A DNA stretch of 33,405 nucleotides, from NCBI GenBank assembly GCA_004294265.1, contig REAG01000123.1, forward strand, positions 1 through 33,405. Direction: 5' to 3'. Source of the DNA: Cytophagales bacterium. GTDB lineage: Bacteria > Bacteroidota > Bacteroidia > Cytophagales > UBA9547. The notes beneath the pieces were generated by a model. That model ran no database searches. It worked only from the letters and a program-made list of their open reading frames with translations, and had not been told where the DNA came from. Below, one piece after another: positions 320 to 7,362 of the stretch; position 1 is the stretch's first letter, and each line of letters opens with the position of its first letter. Made by a program: the position numbers and the translations under genes.

Positions 320-3300
320 ATGTCTAATTCTTTCGATAAAAAATCCTATAAATCTACCTGTTCTTATTGTGGTGTTGGCTGTGGAATTATTGTTCACAAA
401 GAAACCAATGGAAAAATCAAAATAGAAGGCGATAAAGACCATCCTGTTAATAAAGGAATGCTTTGTTCTAAGGGAATGAATTTACACTATACCGTAATGG
501 ATAAGTCAGATAGAATTTTTTATCCAGAAATGCGTTGGGGTAGAAATCAACCACGCCAAAGAGTTAGCTGGGATCAAGCATTGGATAGAACTGCCGCCAC
601 ATTTAAGACTTTTATAGAAAAATATGGACCTGATTCGGTTGGCTTTTATGTTTCAGGACAATGTCTCACTGAAGAGTATTATGTAATAAATAAATTAATT
701 AAAGGATTTATTGGTTCAAATAATATTGATACAAATTCTAGATTGTGTATGAGTTCGGCTGTGGTTGGTTATAAGCTTAGTTTGGGCGAGGATGCCGTTC
801 CTGTTTGTTATGATGATATTGAAATTGCAGATACTTTTTTTGTAACTGGTGCAAATCCTGCGTGGTGCCACCCGATTTTATGGCGAAGAGTGGAAGCTCA
901 CAAACAAAAAAATCCTGATACAAAAATAATTGTGGTTGATCCACGAAAAACGCAAACGGCTGCCATCGCAGATTTGCATTTGCAAATCAATCCTGGAACG
1001 GATATTGTTTTGTATCATGCCATTGGAAGATTATTAATAGAAAAAGATGCTGTCGATTTAGACTTTATTACTAATTATGCAGATGGTTTTGAAAAATATA
1101 AAGAAATAGTTTTCCTTAAAACTTTGAAAGAATCTGCCACTATTTGTGGTGTTCGAGCGGAAGATATTCGTTGGGCAGCCGAATATATCAGTCGTGCCAA
1201 AGGTTTTATAACAATGTGGACGATGGGTTTGAACCAATCTGTGATTGGAGTGAATAAAAATTTGGCTTTAATTAACTTAAATTTAATTACAGGTCATATT
1301 GGTAAACCTGGTTCTGGACCGTTTTCGCTCACTGGTCAGCCCAATGCGATGGGAGGCAGAGAAGTTGGTGGATTAGCAAATTTATTACCAAACCATCGAG
1401 ATTTATTAAACCCCGAACACCGCAAAGCGGTGGAGGATTTTTGGAAAAGTCCTGTTCAAATTGCATCAAAACCGGGTCTGACTGCAACTGAAATGTTTGA
1501 GGCTTTGGCAGATGGCAGAATGAAAGCCATTTGGATTGTTTGCACAAATCCATTGGTAAGCATGCCTGATGTGCGAACGGTAGAAAAGGCTTTAGAAAAG
1601 GCAAAATTCGTGGTTGTTCAAGATTGTTCTTGGCTTTCGGACACTACAAAATATGCGGATGTGATACTTCCTGCGGCTTCATGGACAGAAAAAGAAGGCA
1701 CAATGACAAATTCCGAACGCAGAATAACTTACTTAAATAAAATTGTAGATGCACCAGGAGAAGCTCTGCCTGACACAGATATTATTTTGAAATTTGCCAA
1801 AAAAATGGGTTTTGGCAATTCATTTAATTATAAAAATTGCGAAGAAGTTTATGCAGAACATGCTGCACTTTCCGAAGGTACAAATACTGATATTTCAGGA
1901 TTAAATTATGAAATTCTAAAAGCAAATACTTCCGTTCAATGGCCATTTCCGAAAGGAGAATTATTGGGAGGAAAAGAAAGATTATTTGAAAATAAAATAT
2001 TTTATACACTAAATAAAAAAGCTCAAATTCATGCGGTATCTGATGTCAATTTATCTGAATCATTATCAACTGAATTACCTCTTATTCTTACCACAGGAAG
2101 AATAAGAGATCAGTGGCATACAATGACAAAAACTGGAAAAGTAAATAAACTAAAACAACATATTGAAGTTCCATATTTAGAAATTCATCCATCTGATGCA
2201 GAAAAAAGGCATATTTTGGAAGATAGTATTGTAGTTATCAATAATGCAAGAGGCGAAGTTAGAGCAAAAGCAAAAGTAACTACTGATATAAAAAAAGGAG
2301 TTGTATTTTTACCTATGCACTGGGGAAAAACAATGAATAATGATTTTGGAAGAGCCAATAATCTTACCAATAATTTGGTTGATGCTCGCTCCAAAGAACC
2401 TGATTTTAAGTTTGCTGCTGTTCAGGTCGCTTTATTTAAAAAACCAAAACAAAAAATCGTAATAGTGGGTGCTGGTGCTGCTTGTTTTGGCTTTTGTAAA
2501 TCCTACAGAGAGCTGAATAAAGAAGACGAAATTCATATTTTTTCAAAAGAATTATGGCCTTTTTATAACCGAGTTATGTTGCCTGATTATATTTCGGGGC
2601 ATCAAGTGTGGGAACAATTAGTTAAGTTAAAAGATGAGGAAATTCCTGATTGGGATTTGCATGTTCATAGAGAAACTTTGATTTCAAATATTGATAGAAC
2701 TAATAAAACCATCACTGACGATAAAGGAATTGTACATAAGTATGATATTTTATTTTTAGGCATGGGAAGCCGTGCTTTTATGCCAAAAGAAGTCCCTATT
2801 GGCAAAATGGCTGGTATTTTCAATATGAGAAGTAGAATTGATGCCGACAAATTATTGCCTTATTGTTTGCCAAATGCACATATATTAATAGTCGGAGGTG
2901 GACTTTTGGGCTTAGAATTGGCAGCTTCTTTAACACAAATGAAAGTTAAAATTACAGTTGTCAATCGAACGGACAGGTTAATGGAACGGCAATTGGATAG
3001 TTTAGGAAGTCAATTACTTTTAGAAGAATATCAAGAACGTAATATTCAGTTTTATTTTAATGATGAAGTTCAGTCATTTTTTGGAAATGAACACATCGAA
3101 GCTGTAACTTTAAAATCTGGAAAAAGAATTGAATGTTCAGCTGCAGTTTTTGCTATTGGCACAACGCCAAATGTGGAACTTGCAAGAGCTTCCGGGATTG
3201 ATGTAAAGCGTGGAGTTGTAGTGAATGAATATTTGCAAACTTCAGATTCTAGTATTTACGCAGCAGGAGAAATTGCAGAATTTAAAGGCATGATGTGGGG

Positions 3301-3862
3301 AATTACTGCTGCAGCCGAGCAACAAGCCGATGTGATTGCAAAGCATCTTTCGGGCGATTTGAGTGCCATTTATAAAGGTTCTACTTTTATGAATATCTTA
3401 AAAATGGAAGGATTGCAACTTTGTTCGATTGGTTTTCCAGAAGCTCCGCCCGATGATCCCACTTACGAAGAGGTGGTTTTTATAGATAAATCGCAACGCT
3501 ATTATAAAAAATGTGTTATTCACAACGACAAATTAATTGGAGCAATTTTAATTGGAGATAAATCAGAATTTATAGAATTTAAAGATTTAATTAGTAATAA
3601 AATTGAACTTTCGGATAAGCGTTTGGAATTACTTCGTTCCAATAAAAAAGCCGAACCTGTACTTGGAAAATTGGTTTGCTCTTGCAATAGTGTTGGAGAA
3701 GGAAATTTGGTAAATAAAGTAAAAGCAGGATGCAAAGACTTTACGGCTTTATGCAAAGAAACAGGTGCTGGCATGGGTTGCGGTAGTTGCAGACCCGAAG
3801 TTAAAGGAATTTTAGAACGTGAATATAAACCCGAAAAAGCAGGAAAATTAGAAATGGTTTAA
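320..3862 (+). CDS. nasA: Assimilatory nitrate reductase, multidomain fusion: molybdopterin (bis-MGD) catalytic domain + NirB-like FAD/NAD(P)H-type pyridine nucleotide-disulfide oxidoreductase + C-terminal BFD-like [2Fe-2S] domain
   Basis: 1180-aa ORF. N-terminal CSYCGVGCG...GMLCSKG is a 4Fe-4S motif; SRLCMSSAV fits the Mo-ligand region. Middle KIVIVGAGAACFGF and ILIVGGGLLGLELAASL are two dinucleotide-binding Rossmann motifs. C-terminus LVCSCNSVGEGNL...GAGMGCGSCRPEV is BFD-like. Confidence 0.92.
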   Translation: MSNSFDKKSYKSTCSYCGVGCGIIVHKETNGKIKIEGDKDHPVNKGMLCSKGMNLHYTVMDKSDRIFYPEMRWGRNQPRQRVSWDQALDRTAATFKTFIEKYGPDSVGFYVSGQCLTEEYYVINKLIKGFIGSNNIDTNSRLCMSSAVVGYKLSLGEDAVPVCYDDIEIADTFFVTGANPAWCHPILWRRVEAHKQKNPDTKIIVVDPRKTQTAAIADLHLQINPGTDIVLYHAIGRLLIEKDAVDLDFITNYADGFEKYKEIVFLKTLKESATICGVRAEDIRWAAEYISRAKGFITMWTMGLNQSVIGVNKNLALINLNLITGHIGKPGSGPFSLTGQPNAMGGREVGGLANLLPNHRDLLNPEHRKAVEDFWKSPVQIASKPGLTATEMFEALADGRMKAIWIVCTNPLVSMPDVRTVEKALEKAKFVVVQDCSWLSDTTKYADVILPAASWTEKEGTMTNSERRITYLNKIVDAPGEALPDTDIILKFAKKMGFGNSFNYKNCEEVYAEHAALSEGTNTDISGLNYEILKANTSVQWPFPKGELLGGKERLFENKIFYTLNKKAQIHAVSDVNLSESLSTELPLILTTGRIRDQWHTMTKTGKVNKLKQHIEVPYLEIHPSDAEKRHILEDSIVVINNARGEVRAKAKVTTDIKKGVVFLPMHWGKTMNNDFGRANNLTNNLVDARSKEPDFKFAAVQVALFKKPKQKIVIVGAGAACFGFCKSYRELNKEDEIHIFSKELWPFYNRVMLPDYISGHQVWEQLVKLKDEEIPDWDLHVHRETLISNIDRTNKTITDDKGIVHKYDILFLGMGSRAFMPKEVPIGKMAGIFNMRSRIDADKLLPYCLPNAHILIVGGGLLGLELAASLTQMKVKITVVNRTDRLMERQLDSLGSQLLLEEYQERNIQFYFNDEVQSFFGNEHIEAVTLKSGKRIECSAAVFAIGTTPNVELARASGIDVKRGVVVNEYLQTSDSSIYAAGEIAEFKGMMWGITAAAEQQADVIAKHLSGDLSAIYKGSTFMNILKMEGLQLCSIGFPEAPPDDPTYEEVVFIDKSQRYYKKCVIHNDKLIGAILIGDKSEFIEFKDLISNKIELSDKRLELLRSNKKAEPVLGKLVCSCNSVGEGNLVNKVKAGCKDFTALCKETGAGMGCGSCRPEVKGILEREYKPEKAGKLEMV

Positions 3863-3871
3863 CAATAAATG

Positions 3872-3903
3872 TTTGTAAATAAGTATAATATTTTATATAT
3901 TTG
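3872..3903 (+). promoter_or_regulatory. Bacteroidota-type promoter: TTTG (3872-3875) - N20 - TATATTTG (3896-3903, TAnnTTTG)
   Basis: Matches the published Bacteroidetes -33 TTTG / -7 TAnnTTTG pattern with normal spacing, 21 nt before the ATG at 3924. Confidence 0.6.
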
Positions 3904-3923: not shown

Positions 3924-4079
3924 ATGAAAAAAGATAAAACATTAAATTCTGTTGGAGCACCTTTTTTTCAAAAAATGTTGGATATTAAAAAGGCTTTATC
4001 TACTCATTATGCCAAAAATGGAACTAATGAAGGTGCAAAAAAAATAATAGAAGATGCTAGAACCTTATCTATTCAATAA
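3924..4079 (+). CDS. Small ORF, 51 aa (MKKDKTLNSVGAPFFQKMLDIKKALSTHYAKNGTNEGAKKIIEDARTLSIQ), unknown function; overlaps the next ORF by 26 nt in another frame
   Basis: Translated by hand; absent from the supplied track (below length cutoff). Follows a promoter-like sequence and has plausible amino-acid composition. Confidence 0.5.
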   Translation: MKKDKTLNSVGAPFFQKMLDIKKALSTHYAKNGTNEGAKKIIEDARTLSIQ

Positions 4080-4533
4080 GTTAGAAGATTTGATTTATGT
4101 ATTTAAAACAACTAATAACATTGAATACAAAATAAATTTATTTTCTTTTGATTATATGTTTCATCAATATCCACACATTTCAAAATATATTTATTCTTTT
4201 GATTTAAGTTTAGTTGGTGAACATAAAAAAACGCCTCTAGACCCAAGAATAGGAATAACGGTAGCATATATACTAGGAGATTTTTTTCAAAATGAAGAAA
4301 ACGCTATTATATATGTGTGCGAAAGTTTGGATAACAGGCAAAAAGCTCGAAAAAGAAAGTTTGATGAATGGTTTAATAAATACAAAGGAAAAAAAATACT
4401 TCAAATTAATATGACAGCTTATATTGAAGGTCTTGAGATTTTAAATTCTTTAATTTTACATGTAAATAATCCAAATTTCAAAGAAATTGTTGTTGCATTT
4501 GCTGAATTGAACAATAACGCAGAAGAAAAATAA
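4054..4533 (+). CDS. DUF6169-like protein of unknown function
   Basis: 159 aa. The segment AIIYVCESLDNRQKARKRKFDEWF resembles what I recall of the DUF6169 family. Tightly spaced with the next gene (4 nt). Confidence 0.65.
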   Translation: MLEPYLFNKLEDLIYVFKTTNNIEYKINLFSFDYMFHQYPHISKYIYSFDLSLVGEHKKTPLDPRIGITVAYILGDFFQNEENAIIYVCESLDNRQKARKRKFDEWFNKYKGKKILQINMTAYIEGLEILNSLILHVNNPNFKEIVVAFAELNNNAEEK

Positions 4534-4537
4534 AAAT

Positions 4538-4936
4538 ATGAGTATAATTAAATTGCCAATTTCTTACGAAGGTGATATTTCAGACAAAATTCTTTATACT
4601 TTGTTTGATAGTGGTTCTACTTATTCGTGCATTCATCCTGATATGCTCGAAAAGTTGGCAAATCCTATAAAATTTAAGCGTCCTATGCTTTTTGGAACAG
4701 CTTCAGAAGGAAACTTTATTGAAGTAAGAGAGGCTTGTAGATTAGATTTCTATTTAGAAGACGTTCGGCTTACGGACGAGTTTTATGTTGTTCCTGGTTT
4801 ATCGGAAGATGCGATTATTGGAGCTACAACGATGCAAAAATGGCGAATAAATCTTGATTTTGAACTTGATAAGCCTATTATAGATCCTAAAGTTGCAAAA
4901 TTAATTTTAATAAATTTAATTAGAAAAGAAAACTAA
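4538..4936 (+). CDS. Retropepsin-like (clan AA) aspartic protease
   Basis: 132 aa. LFDSGSTYSCIHPDML fits the D-[ST]-G active-site motif (D-S-G-S). The second hydrophobic-hydrophobic-Gly motif is AIIGATTMQKWRINLDFE. Confidence 0.7.
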   Translation: MSIIKLPISYEGDISDKILYTLFDSGSTYSCIHPDMLEKLANPIKFKRPMLFGTASEGNFIEVREACRLDFYLEDVRLTDEFYVVPGLSEDAIIGATTMQKWRINLDFELDKPIIDPKVAKLILINLIRKEN

Positions 4937-4939
4937 AAT

Positions 4940-6391
4940 ATGAATCATATCGTAAAATTTAATGCCATTGGCGGTATTTTTACGCCACGTGTTTTGCAAG
5001 ATATTGTAGAAATTGCCTATTCAGAAAAAGTTGAAAATATCAATTTTGGACCTAGGCAAGAAATATATTTGAATGTTAAAAATGAATACATTTTAAGTTT
5101 TCAAAATCAGTTACACGAAAAAAATATTTCTTACGAATTAGATAAAGATGAATATCCAAATATTGTGAGTTCGTATGTGGCTGAAAGTATTCTTTCGCCC
5201 GATAATTGGCTTACAGAAGGAATTTATAAAGATATTTTTGATCAATTTGATTTTGATCCAAAATTAAAAGTAAATATCTGCGACTCTGTTCAAACTTTAG
5301 TTCCGTTTTTTTCTGGTGAATTGAATTTTATTGCTTCTGAAACTTACCAATATTGGTATTTATATCTTAATTTTGAAGGACAAGAAAACGTAATTCTTTG
5401 GAATAGACTAATTTACACCACCGATATTCCTAAAATTTGTAAAGAAATAGAAGAATTATTTTTAAACAATAAAATTACAAATGGCAACCAAATAATGGCA
5501 ACTGTAAACGAAAATACGATTTTTCTTTTTGAGAATATTACAAAAGATTTAAAATTACCTCGATTTGTATTTCCTTATTATGAAGGAATGGTAAAATATG
5601 GTGATAAATATTGGCTTGGCGTTTACCGCAGAGATTATCTTTATCCAATTCCGTTTATCTTTGAATTATGCAAATTATGTAACCATACCGATATTGGTCA
5701 GTTGTGCATCACACCATGGCGTACTTTGATTGTAAAAGGTATAGAATCTAAAGACCGTATTTATTGGGAGAAAATATTAGGAAAACATGGAATTAACCTC
5801 AGACACTCTTCAAACGAACTTAATTGGATTGTGGATGATATAAATTCGGAAGAAATTGAAATCAAAAAACATATCATTCGGGCTTTTGACAAAGACGATG
5901 TGCGTACTTTTGGATTAGTTTTTGGCATAAAATTAAATCCATCTAAGTTTATCCCAGCTTCCATTATCATTGAAAAGTGCAAAACTGAAGATAACAGTTT
6001 ACCATCTTTTGATATTTATTATTCAGATAATTTTAATCCTAATAATCCAAACAAAAATATATTTGCACATGGAATTTATAAAAATGAACTTTCTGCTAAA
6101 TTATTAGAATTAAGTAAAAAATTTTTTAGTAACCTAAACGAAATAGAAAAAAGTAAACCTATCGGAAAAAATGTAATTTCTAAAACAACTTCCGAAAAAA
6201 TTGATCTAGATTTACATCAATGTCTATCATGTTTTACAGTTTATGACGAACGATTTGGTGATGAAATGCAAGGTATTAAAAAAGGAATTAAATTTGAAAA
6301 TTTACCAATATCTTACTGTTGTCCGACTTGCGAAACACCTAAAAATAAATTTATTAAAATAAATATTGAAAAAATATTGAATAATAATTGA
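4940..6391 (+). CDS. Nitrite/sulfite reductase ferredoxin-like (half-domain) protein with C-terminal rubredoxin domain
   Basis: NFGPRQEIYLN, INICDSVQTLVPFFSGELNFIAS-type region, CITPWRTLIVKGI and DVRTFGLVFGIKL resemble sulfite/nitrite reductase-like domains. C-terminal CLSC...YCCPTC is a rubredoxin iron site. The canonical siroheme/4Fe-4S C-x5-C...C-x3-C set is not seen. Confidence 0.75.
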   Translation: MNHIVKFNAIGGIFTPRVLQDIVEIAYSEKVENINFGPRQEIYLNVKNEYILSFQNQLHEKNISYELDKDEYPNIVSSYVAESILSPDNWLTEGIYKDIFDQFDFDPKLKVNICDSVQTLVPFFSGELNFIASETYQYWYLYLNFEGQENVILWNRLIYTTDIPKICKEIEELFLNNKITNGNQIMATVNENTIFLFENITKDLKLPRFVFPYYEGMVKYGDKYWLGVYRRDYLYPIPFIFELCKLCNHTDIGQLCITPWRTLIVKGIESKDRIYWEKILGKHGINLRHSSNELNWIVDDINSEEIEIKKHIIRAFDKDDVRTFGLVFGIKLNPSKFIPASIIIEKCKTEDNSLPSFDIYYSDNFNPNNPNKNIFAHGIYKNELSAKLLELSKKFFSNLNEIEKSKPIGKNVISKTTSEKIDLDLHQCLSCFTVYDERFGDEMQGIKKGIKFENLPISYCCPTCETPKNKFIKINIEKILNNN

Positions 6392-6420
6392 CATTTGTCT
6401 AAATAATTACGACATTTGTG
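6390..6420. promoter_or_regulatory. Candidate operator of the Xre-RES module: two GACATTTGT[C/G] sites 21 bp apart (6390-6399 and 6411-6420)
   Basis: Direct repeat of GACATTTGT, each half-palindromic (GACA-TT-TGT[C/G]), immediately upstream of the antitoxin ATG at 6439. Confidence 0.4.
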
Positions 6421-6438
6421 TTGTTAAAAATAAGCAAA

Positions 6439-6906
6439 ATGAAAAAATCAAAATTTATTGACACAGAAGAGCAAGATATATCCGTTGTAAGTGAGCCACA
6501 AATTTCCTACCATACAACTGCAAATCCTAATTTTTATAATCCATATAAAATGATAGATACAGCTCGAAGTGGCGTATCAAAAAAGAAACTTTTGGAACTT
6601 TCTTATTCTACTAATATTGATATTGTAGAAATGGCAAAAATGCTTCATGTTTCAGTTCGTACTATTCAACGATATTCAGACAATGACAAACTAGACACGC
6701 ACATCAGTGAGCATATTTTAATGATTGAAAAGCTTTATCAAAAAGGTAATTCAACTTTTGATTCTCCAAATGGTTTTCATAATTGGATGAACACAGAGCT
6801 TTTTGCACTTAACTTTCAAAAACCTATCAGTTTTTTGGATACCTTATCAGGTGTTGAATTAGTTTACAACAAAATTGGGCAGTTTGAGCATGGCATTTTT
6901 GCATAA
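6439..6906 (+). CDS. Xre/MbcA/ParS-type antitoxin of a RES-Xre toxin-antitoxin module (track ORF opens at GTG 6418; ATG 6439 preferred)
   Basis: Helix-turn-helix-like TNIDIVEMAKMLHVSVRTIQRYSDND and C-terminal toxin-binding-like SPNGFHNWMNTELFALNFQKPISFLDTLSGVELVYNKIGQFEHGIFA. Directly precedes a RES gene. Confidence 0.88.
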   Translation: MKKSKFIDTEEQDISVVSEPQISYHTTANPNFYNPYKMIDTARSGVSKKKLLELSYSTNIDIVEMAKMLHVSVRTIQRYSDNDKLDTHISEHILMIEKLYQKGNSTFDSPNGFHNWMNTELFALNFQKPISFLDTLSGVELVYNKIGQFEHGIFA

Positions 6907-6912
6907 ATATCA

Positions 6913-7362
6913 ATGAAAGTTTATAGAATTGCAAAAAAAAACTTTGCCAAAGATTTAACTGGTGAAGGAGCTAGATTATACGGAGGAAGATGGAATTTTA
7001 TCGGAGATACAATGCTTTACACAGCAAGTAATGTAGCTTTAGCGGCTTTAGAGGTGGTTGTAAATATGCAATTTGTAAATATTCCTTCAGATTATAAAAT
7101 AGTGGTTATTGAAATACCTGATATTTTAAAAGTTTATTCTATGGAAATGGATGCAGACATAAATTGGACTAAAAATATAACTATATCTCAGTATTTTGGA
7201 CAGCAATGGTTAAATTCTAAAGTGTCTTTGTTAGCTGAGGTTTCTTCAGTCATTGTTCCGATTGATAAAAATATTTTAATAAATCCTTTGCACCCTGATT
7301 TTTCTAAAGTAAAAATTATTGACGTACAAGATTTTAATTTTGATAAAAGACTTATAAAATAA
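6913..7362 (+). CDS. RES-domain toxin
   Basis: 149 aa; MKVYRIAKKNFAKDLTGEGARLYGGRWNFIGDTMLYTASNVALAALEVVV is characteristic of RES-domain toxins. Confidence 0.9.
   Translation: MKVYRIAKKNFAKDLTGEGARLYGGRWNFIGDTMLYTASNVALAALEVVVNMQFVNIPSDYKIVVIEIPDILKVYSMEMDADINWTKNITISQYFGQQWLNSKVSLLAEVSSVIVPIDKNILINPLHPDFSKVKIIDVQDFNFDKRLIK

Follow-up and report, generated by a model that had tools for sequence, protein, structure and literature searches.

A small ORF and its DUF6169 neighbour as a candidate toxin-antitoxin pair inserted in a nitrate-assimilation operon

We propose that a 51-aa small ORF and the DUF6169 gene that it overlaps constitute a candidate type-II-like toxin-antitoxin pair, in which the small, helical protein would be the antitoxin and DUF6169 the putative toxin; we put the probability of this reading at about 60%. 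The window analysed here (the whole stretch of 33,405 nucleotides) carries the pair within an operon for nitrate/nitrite assimilation. The initial annotation had described a promoter, a 51-aa ORF overlapping a DUF6169-like gene in a different frame, and a single-domain aspartic protease of the DSGS type immediately downstream, and had grouped the three genes into one candidate module, reminiscent of toxin-antitoxin or regulated-proteolysis cassettes. All of these elements are present, on the + strand, and are listed below with the neighbouring genes:

320-3862: molybdopterin nitrate-reductase-like fusion
3872..3903, + strand: Bacteroidota sigma-type promoter TTTG-N20-TATATTTG, exact match, 20 nt 5' of the small ORF
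3924..4079, + strand: small ORF of 51 aa, proposed antitoxin; conserved family A2, no known domain
4054..4079, + strand: out-of-frame overlap of 26 nt between the small ORF and DUF6169, read from the sequence; probable translational coupling
4054..4533, + strand: DUF6169 gene of 159 aa, proposed toxin (PF19666, E=2.3e-25)
4538..4936, + strand: single-domain retropepsin-like aspartic protease of 132 aa, a neighbour (PF12384, above gathering score)
4607..4618, + strand: codons of the retropepsin DSGS catalytic motif, from the translation of 4538-4936
4940-6391: rubredoxin-domain protein
6418-7362: RES/Xre (ParT/ParS-type) toxin-antitoxin pair, 1.9 kb downstream, same operon region

The small ORF and DUF6169 thus show the layout of a type II module: both are short, they lie side by side on one strand with overlapping ends, and the smaller gene comes first. 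The gap from DUF6169 to the retropepsin is 4 nt. The promoter is one of six matches to the pattern TTTG-N18-22-TANNTTTG on both strands of the 33-kb window. With at most one mismatch, the same pattern was found 5' of 45 of 141 related small ORFs, compared with 4.7% of shuffles. Palindromes in the promoter region were only AT-rich and of low complexity.

Pairing of the two genes was assessed on about 200 loci gathered from the order and from a single family rich in DUF6169. An automatic survey retained 119 non-redundant loci with an intact DUF6169, at 105 of which the small ORF was retrieved with HMM profiles and at 13 more by eye, the last locus lying at a contig end. The small ORF therefore precedes an intact DUF6169 in 118 out of the 118 loci with readable upstream sequence, 13 of them judged by eye. 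When 105 DUF6169 proteins were arranged in a tree, the family label of the partner changed only once along it, whereas shuffled labels changed 25.5 times on average and none of 500 shuffles was as low; the partners are therefore inherited together. As in type II systems, they are always found together and co-inherited. Small-ORF profile matches in two genome sets adjoin DUF6169 or its remnant, with the exception of a minority of orphans, and the overlap has the identical length of 26 nt on plasmid pRUNSL03. In three genomes (L180, L182 and L196), an orphan A3 small ORF without DUF6169 lies directly 5' of a XisH-XisI pair, and in one of them it contains two stops.

The small ORF is conserved as a protein, and DUF6169 recurs with it, as the initial annotation would have required. 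At 52 of 62 DUF6169 loci this position is occupied by an ORF that starts with ATG and has 45 aa or more, compared with 12% in shuffles; partner ORFs upstream of DUF6169 range from roughly 40 to 95 aa, and two families, A2 (that of the window) and A3, account for most of the small proteins. Between the window and the sister genome (G036, record L001), the small protein is 76% identical (dN 0.15, dS 0.5-0.6, dN/dS about 0.3). A chance overlap can be dismissed on account of this conservation, the ORF frequency relative to shuffles and the universal pairing. Neither family has a model in the Pfam or NCBIfam libraries searched, and the 51-aa protein itself gave no convincing match in Pfam or NCBIfam, none in PADLOC and an insignificant one in PHROGs, which speaks against a known antitoxin family in these four resources. 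Its predicted structure, of low confidence (pLDDT 71, pTM 0.44), consists of two helices (residues 11-30 and 35-50), and profile scans with Pfam and NCBIfam recognized no DNA-binding domain. Being short, directly upstream and usually overlapping, the small ORF might be taken for a mere leader or translational-coupling peptide through which DUF6169 expression is controlled, with no function as a protein. However, its amino acid sequence is conserved within two families whose distribution follows that of the partner, dN/dS is about 0.3 for the closest pair of copies, and orphans whose DUF6169 has gone still have an open frame, so that we consider this explanation very improbable.

The two genes decay asymmetrically. 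Searches with the small-ORF profiles detected about 26 loci in which the small ORF is intact and DUF6169 is broken by a stop, frameshift or deletion, or is gone (e.g. L071, L124, L187, L189, L198, L201-L207, L211-L213 and L219). The reverse, an intact DUF6169 without the small ORF, was found at none of the surveyed loci, and a few loci have lost both genes. As in type II systems, the putative toxin is lost before the antitoxin and never the other way round (about 26 vs 0, the loci being partly non-independent). From gene length, about 26% of decays would be expected to strike the small ORF first, for which 0 out of about 26 gives a nominal p near 5e-4, a value weakened by shared ancestry among loci and by the chance that some breaks arose in assembly. 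Gene length may account for part of the asymmetry; such a lopsided pattern is also what a DUF6169 that does harm in the absence of the small protein would produce. An obligate complex would fit the universal pairing and co-inheritance equally well: the small protein could be a chaperone, subunit or adaptor needed by DUF6169, in a non-toxic two-protein module with a stress-response, signalling or anti-phage role, and a plasmid copy beside restriction-modification genes is in keeping with such a role. An obligate subunit, however, predicts similar decay rates of either gene, whereas only DUF6169-first decay was seen, and orphan small ORFs remain open. We regard the non-toxic module as unlikely, though it deserves to be weighed seriously, and favour the toxin-antitoxin pair.

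The distribution of the pair is that of a mobile element: patchy, multicopy and plasmid-borne. DUF6169 was detected in 24 of the 242 genomes sampled from the order, in 10 of 396 from a phylum-wide sample and in 95 of 223 from one family, where a genome may carry as many as 10 copies. The copy on the conjugative plasmid pRUNSL03 lies beside a restriction-modification pair. A Spirosoma plasmid also carries DUF6169, the small ORF being absent from its gene table, which is known to be incomplete. A search of genome contigs with the window DUF6169 as sole query retrieved the sister genome only, and a plasmid search with another DUF6169 member gave no matches. Pairing, co-inheritance, asymmetric decay and mobility together support the toxin-antitoxin part of the initial annotation for the small ORF and DUF6169; the retropepsin does not hold as a third member (see below). 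In several genomes (L189, L190, L198 and L202), a broken DUF6169 with an intact small ORF lies directly 5' of a gatB-like gene, whose flank is possibly a shared insertion site. Two human-gut metagenomic records labelled 'Bacteriophage sp.' (L277 and L278) contain DUF6169 with an upstream small ORF; in L278, DUF6169 sits amid glycosyltransferase genes and looks bacterial.

In the window, the pair separates two genes of the nitrate-assimilation operon. Four related genomes (G092, G120, G051 and G065) show this site uninterrupted, with the reductase gene directly abutting the rubredoxin-domain gene; the DUF6169 region is therefore an insertion in this genus. The sister genome has the same insertion with the same layout. 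As a unit that probably moves between genomes, the pair would have entered the operon between its nitrate reductase and rubredoxin-domain genes, alone or together with the retropepsin, in an ancestor of all or part of this genus. The RES/Xre pair is likewise an insertion, flanked by the rubredoxin-domain gene on one side and by a MoaA-like gene on the other (a MoaD-like gene follows as well, and both Moa-like genes were named from sequence), and so one operon holds two toxin-antitoxin-like insertions. The sequences of RES/Xre and of the DUF6169 pair are unrelated.

The retropepsin carries the motifs DSGS and IIGA and scores 24.3 bits with PF12384 (Peptidase_A2B), above the cut-off of 21.2; with a D(S/T)G motif, a second hhG motif and this family score, it is a retropepsin-like aspartic protease. 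It shares these motifs with the proteases of clan AA and gave weak matches to structures of Retroviral-like aspartic protease 1, but it is a single short domain, and outside this genus it has no link to DUF6169. The initial annotation had suggested that the protease may process or release one of its neighbours, the small ORF product or DUF6169. Within this genus there is something to be said for such a regulated-proteolysis cassette: two species preserve the arrangement of the genes and the close spacing (4 and 7 nt) from DUF6169 to the retropepsin at a dS exceeding 1.2, and against record L001 the protease is under the strongest constraint of the three genes (dN 0.036, dS 1.77; for DUF6169, dN 0.12 and dS 1.46). 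However, the retropepsin adjoins DUF6169 only in the window and in the sister genome. No match to a profile of its relatives was found at the other DUF6169 loci examined (median of 1 kb of downstream sequence), and relatives without DUF6169 occur in G036 (a second copy), G020 (tandem copies), G092 and G002. The neighbourhood survey and these stand-alone relatives argue against a three-gene module that includes the protease, and regulated proteolysis by the retropepsin is very improbable. It is a chance neighbour outside the conserved module, an independent gene that would be co-transcribed by virtue of its position. Because of the tight spacing and strong conservation, a local functional link with DUF6169 may exist in this genus. 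A literature search retrieved no paper joining a retropepsin with toxin-antitoxin systems. The copies in G020 (L035 and L039) are arranged in tandem with a fragment, suggesting that the gene spreads or duplicates on its own.

The window DUF6169 protein is a clear member of PF19666 (88.9 bits, cut-off 27), a family with no assigned function whose obligate upstream small ORF lies outside every family model searched. Its conserved residues are D63, T69, C89, R99, F103 and W106. The structural model is confident (pLDDT 91.9, pTM 0.85), and its best PDB matches with Foldseek were mostly GNAT acetyltransferases and GNAT-fold acyl-homoserine lactone synthases, at weak scores (E about 3e-3 to 0.05, TM about 0.4-0.5). 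Large phage proteins, mostly uncharacterized, match the model better (E 4e-6, TM 0.55). The acetyl-CoA P-loop (Q/R)xxGx(G/A) is not conserved in the DUF6169 alignment, where, by eye, the consensus DxxIxxTIAxI takes its place and no P-loop glycine is conserved. Profile comparison of DUF6169 with 25 GNATs using hhalign gave no support (E=0.56), no GNAT family was among the Pfam matches listed for DUF6169 members, and sequence searches found no solved structural relative. The hhalign result and the missing P-loop argue against an ordinary GNAT enzyme; the predicted GNAT-like topology is a lead only. These genes matched no PADLOC defence family.

GNAT toxin-antitoxin systems (AtaT/AtaR, TacT/TacA and KacT) resemble the pair in having a small gene beside a partner of roughly 160 aa, here with a predicted GNAT-like fold, and in being multicopy and plasmid-borne. 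In contrast to their antitoxins, the small protein is not of the ribbon-helix-helix DUF1778 type (no Pfam or NCBIfam match to ribbon-helix-helix families, and a two-helix model of low confidence), and unlike their toxins, DUF6169 lacks the acetyl-CoA P-loop pattern and sequence-profile similarity. GNAT-RHH pairs show lineage-specific expansions and plasmid copies, and both GNAT-RHH and GNAT-Xre pairs were judged more likely to be resistance operons (PMC2701414); subsequent work established that GNAT toxins act on aminoacyl-tRNA (PMC9177977). By the tests made here, the pair is not in the GNAT toxin family, although a similar action may be possible.

If the toxin-antitoxin reading is right, a single transcript would start at the promoter just upstream. 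The small helical protein would be made first, and the overlapping ends would couple its translation to that of DUF6169. As antitoxin, it would keep DUF6169 inactive through direct binding. DUF6169 would then be a growth-inhibiting effector, predicted to fold as a divergent GNAT-like alpha/beta domain; on the basis of this fold, our leading guess, a weak one, is that it acts on a component of translation by a transferase-type or nucleotide-binding mechanism. This offers a testable function for a Pfam family that is uncharacterized yet frequent in certain lineages of Bacteroidota, and it identifies obligate partner proteins that have no Pfam or NCBIfam family model. To our knowledge, few toxin-antitoxin types have been studied in Bacteroidota; if confirmed, the pair would add a widespread one.

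PF22028 (DUF6934) is a related family. It shares with DUF6169 the common core T(I/V)A ... Y..(S/T) ..R.R.(F/Y); 8 out of 55 DUF6169 members matched DUF6934 with hmmscan (best 4.5e-4), and hhalign gave a short match (E=0.0015). A literature search covering 5.39 million papers found neither family named. Unlike DUF6169, DUF6934 often stands alone or has an XRE-HTH partner in place of the small ORF. A broader possibility, speculative and rather doubtful, is that the two families form a new superfamily of GNAT-derived toxins which, because the acetyl-CoA loop has been lost, would poison by another chemistry. With a tiny helical antitoxin devoid of a DNA-binding domain, they would represent a major uncatalogued toxin-antitoxin type of Bacteroidota, to which the retropepsin may have added a layer of control in this genus. 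As a counterpoint, many DUF6934 relatives stand alone, which would be odd if the whole superfamily were toxic. An apparent XRE-HTH gene lies directly 5' of DUF6934 in L257, L266 and L273 (the HTH being confirmed by Pfam in L266 and L273), and one such DUF6934 gene is found in the window's own genome. An XRE-HTH gene upstream of some DUF6934 members is a classical antitoxin arrangement, which favours the toxin-antitoxin reading of the DUF6169 pair. A DUF6934 gene of G020 (L270) is preceded, at a distance of 50 nt, by a gene for a YoeB-type toxin.
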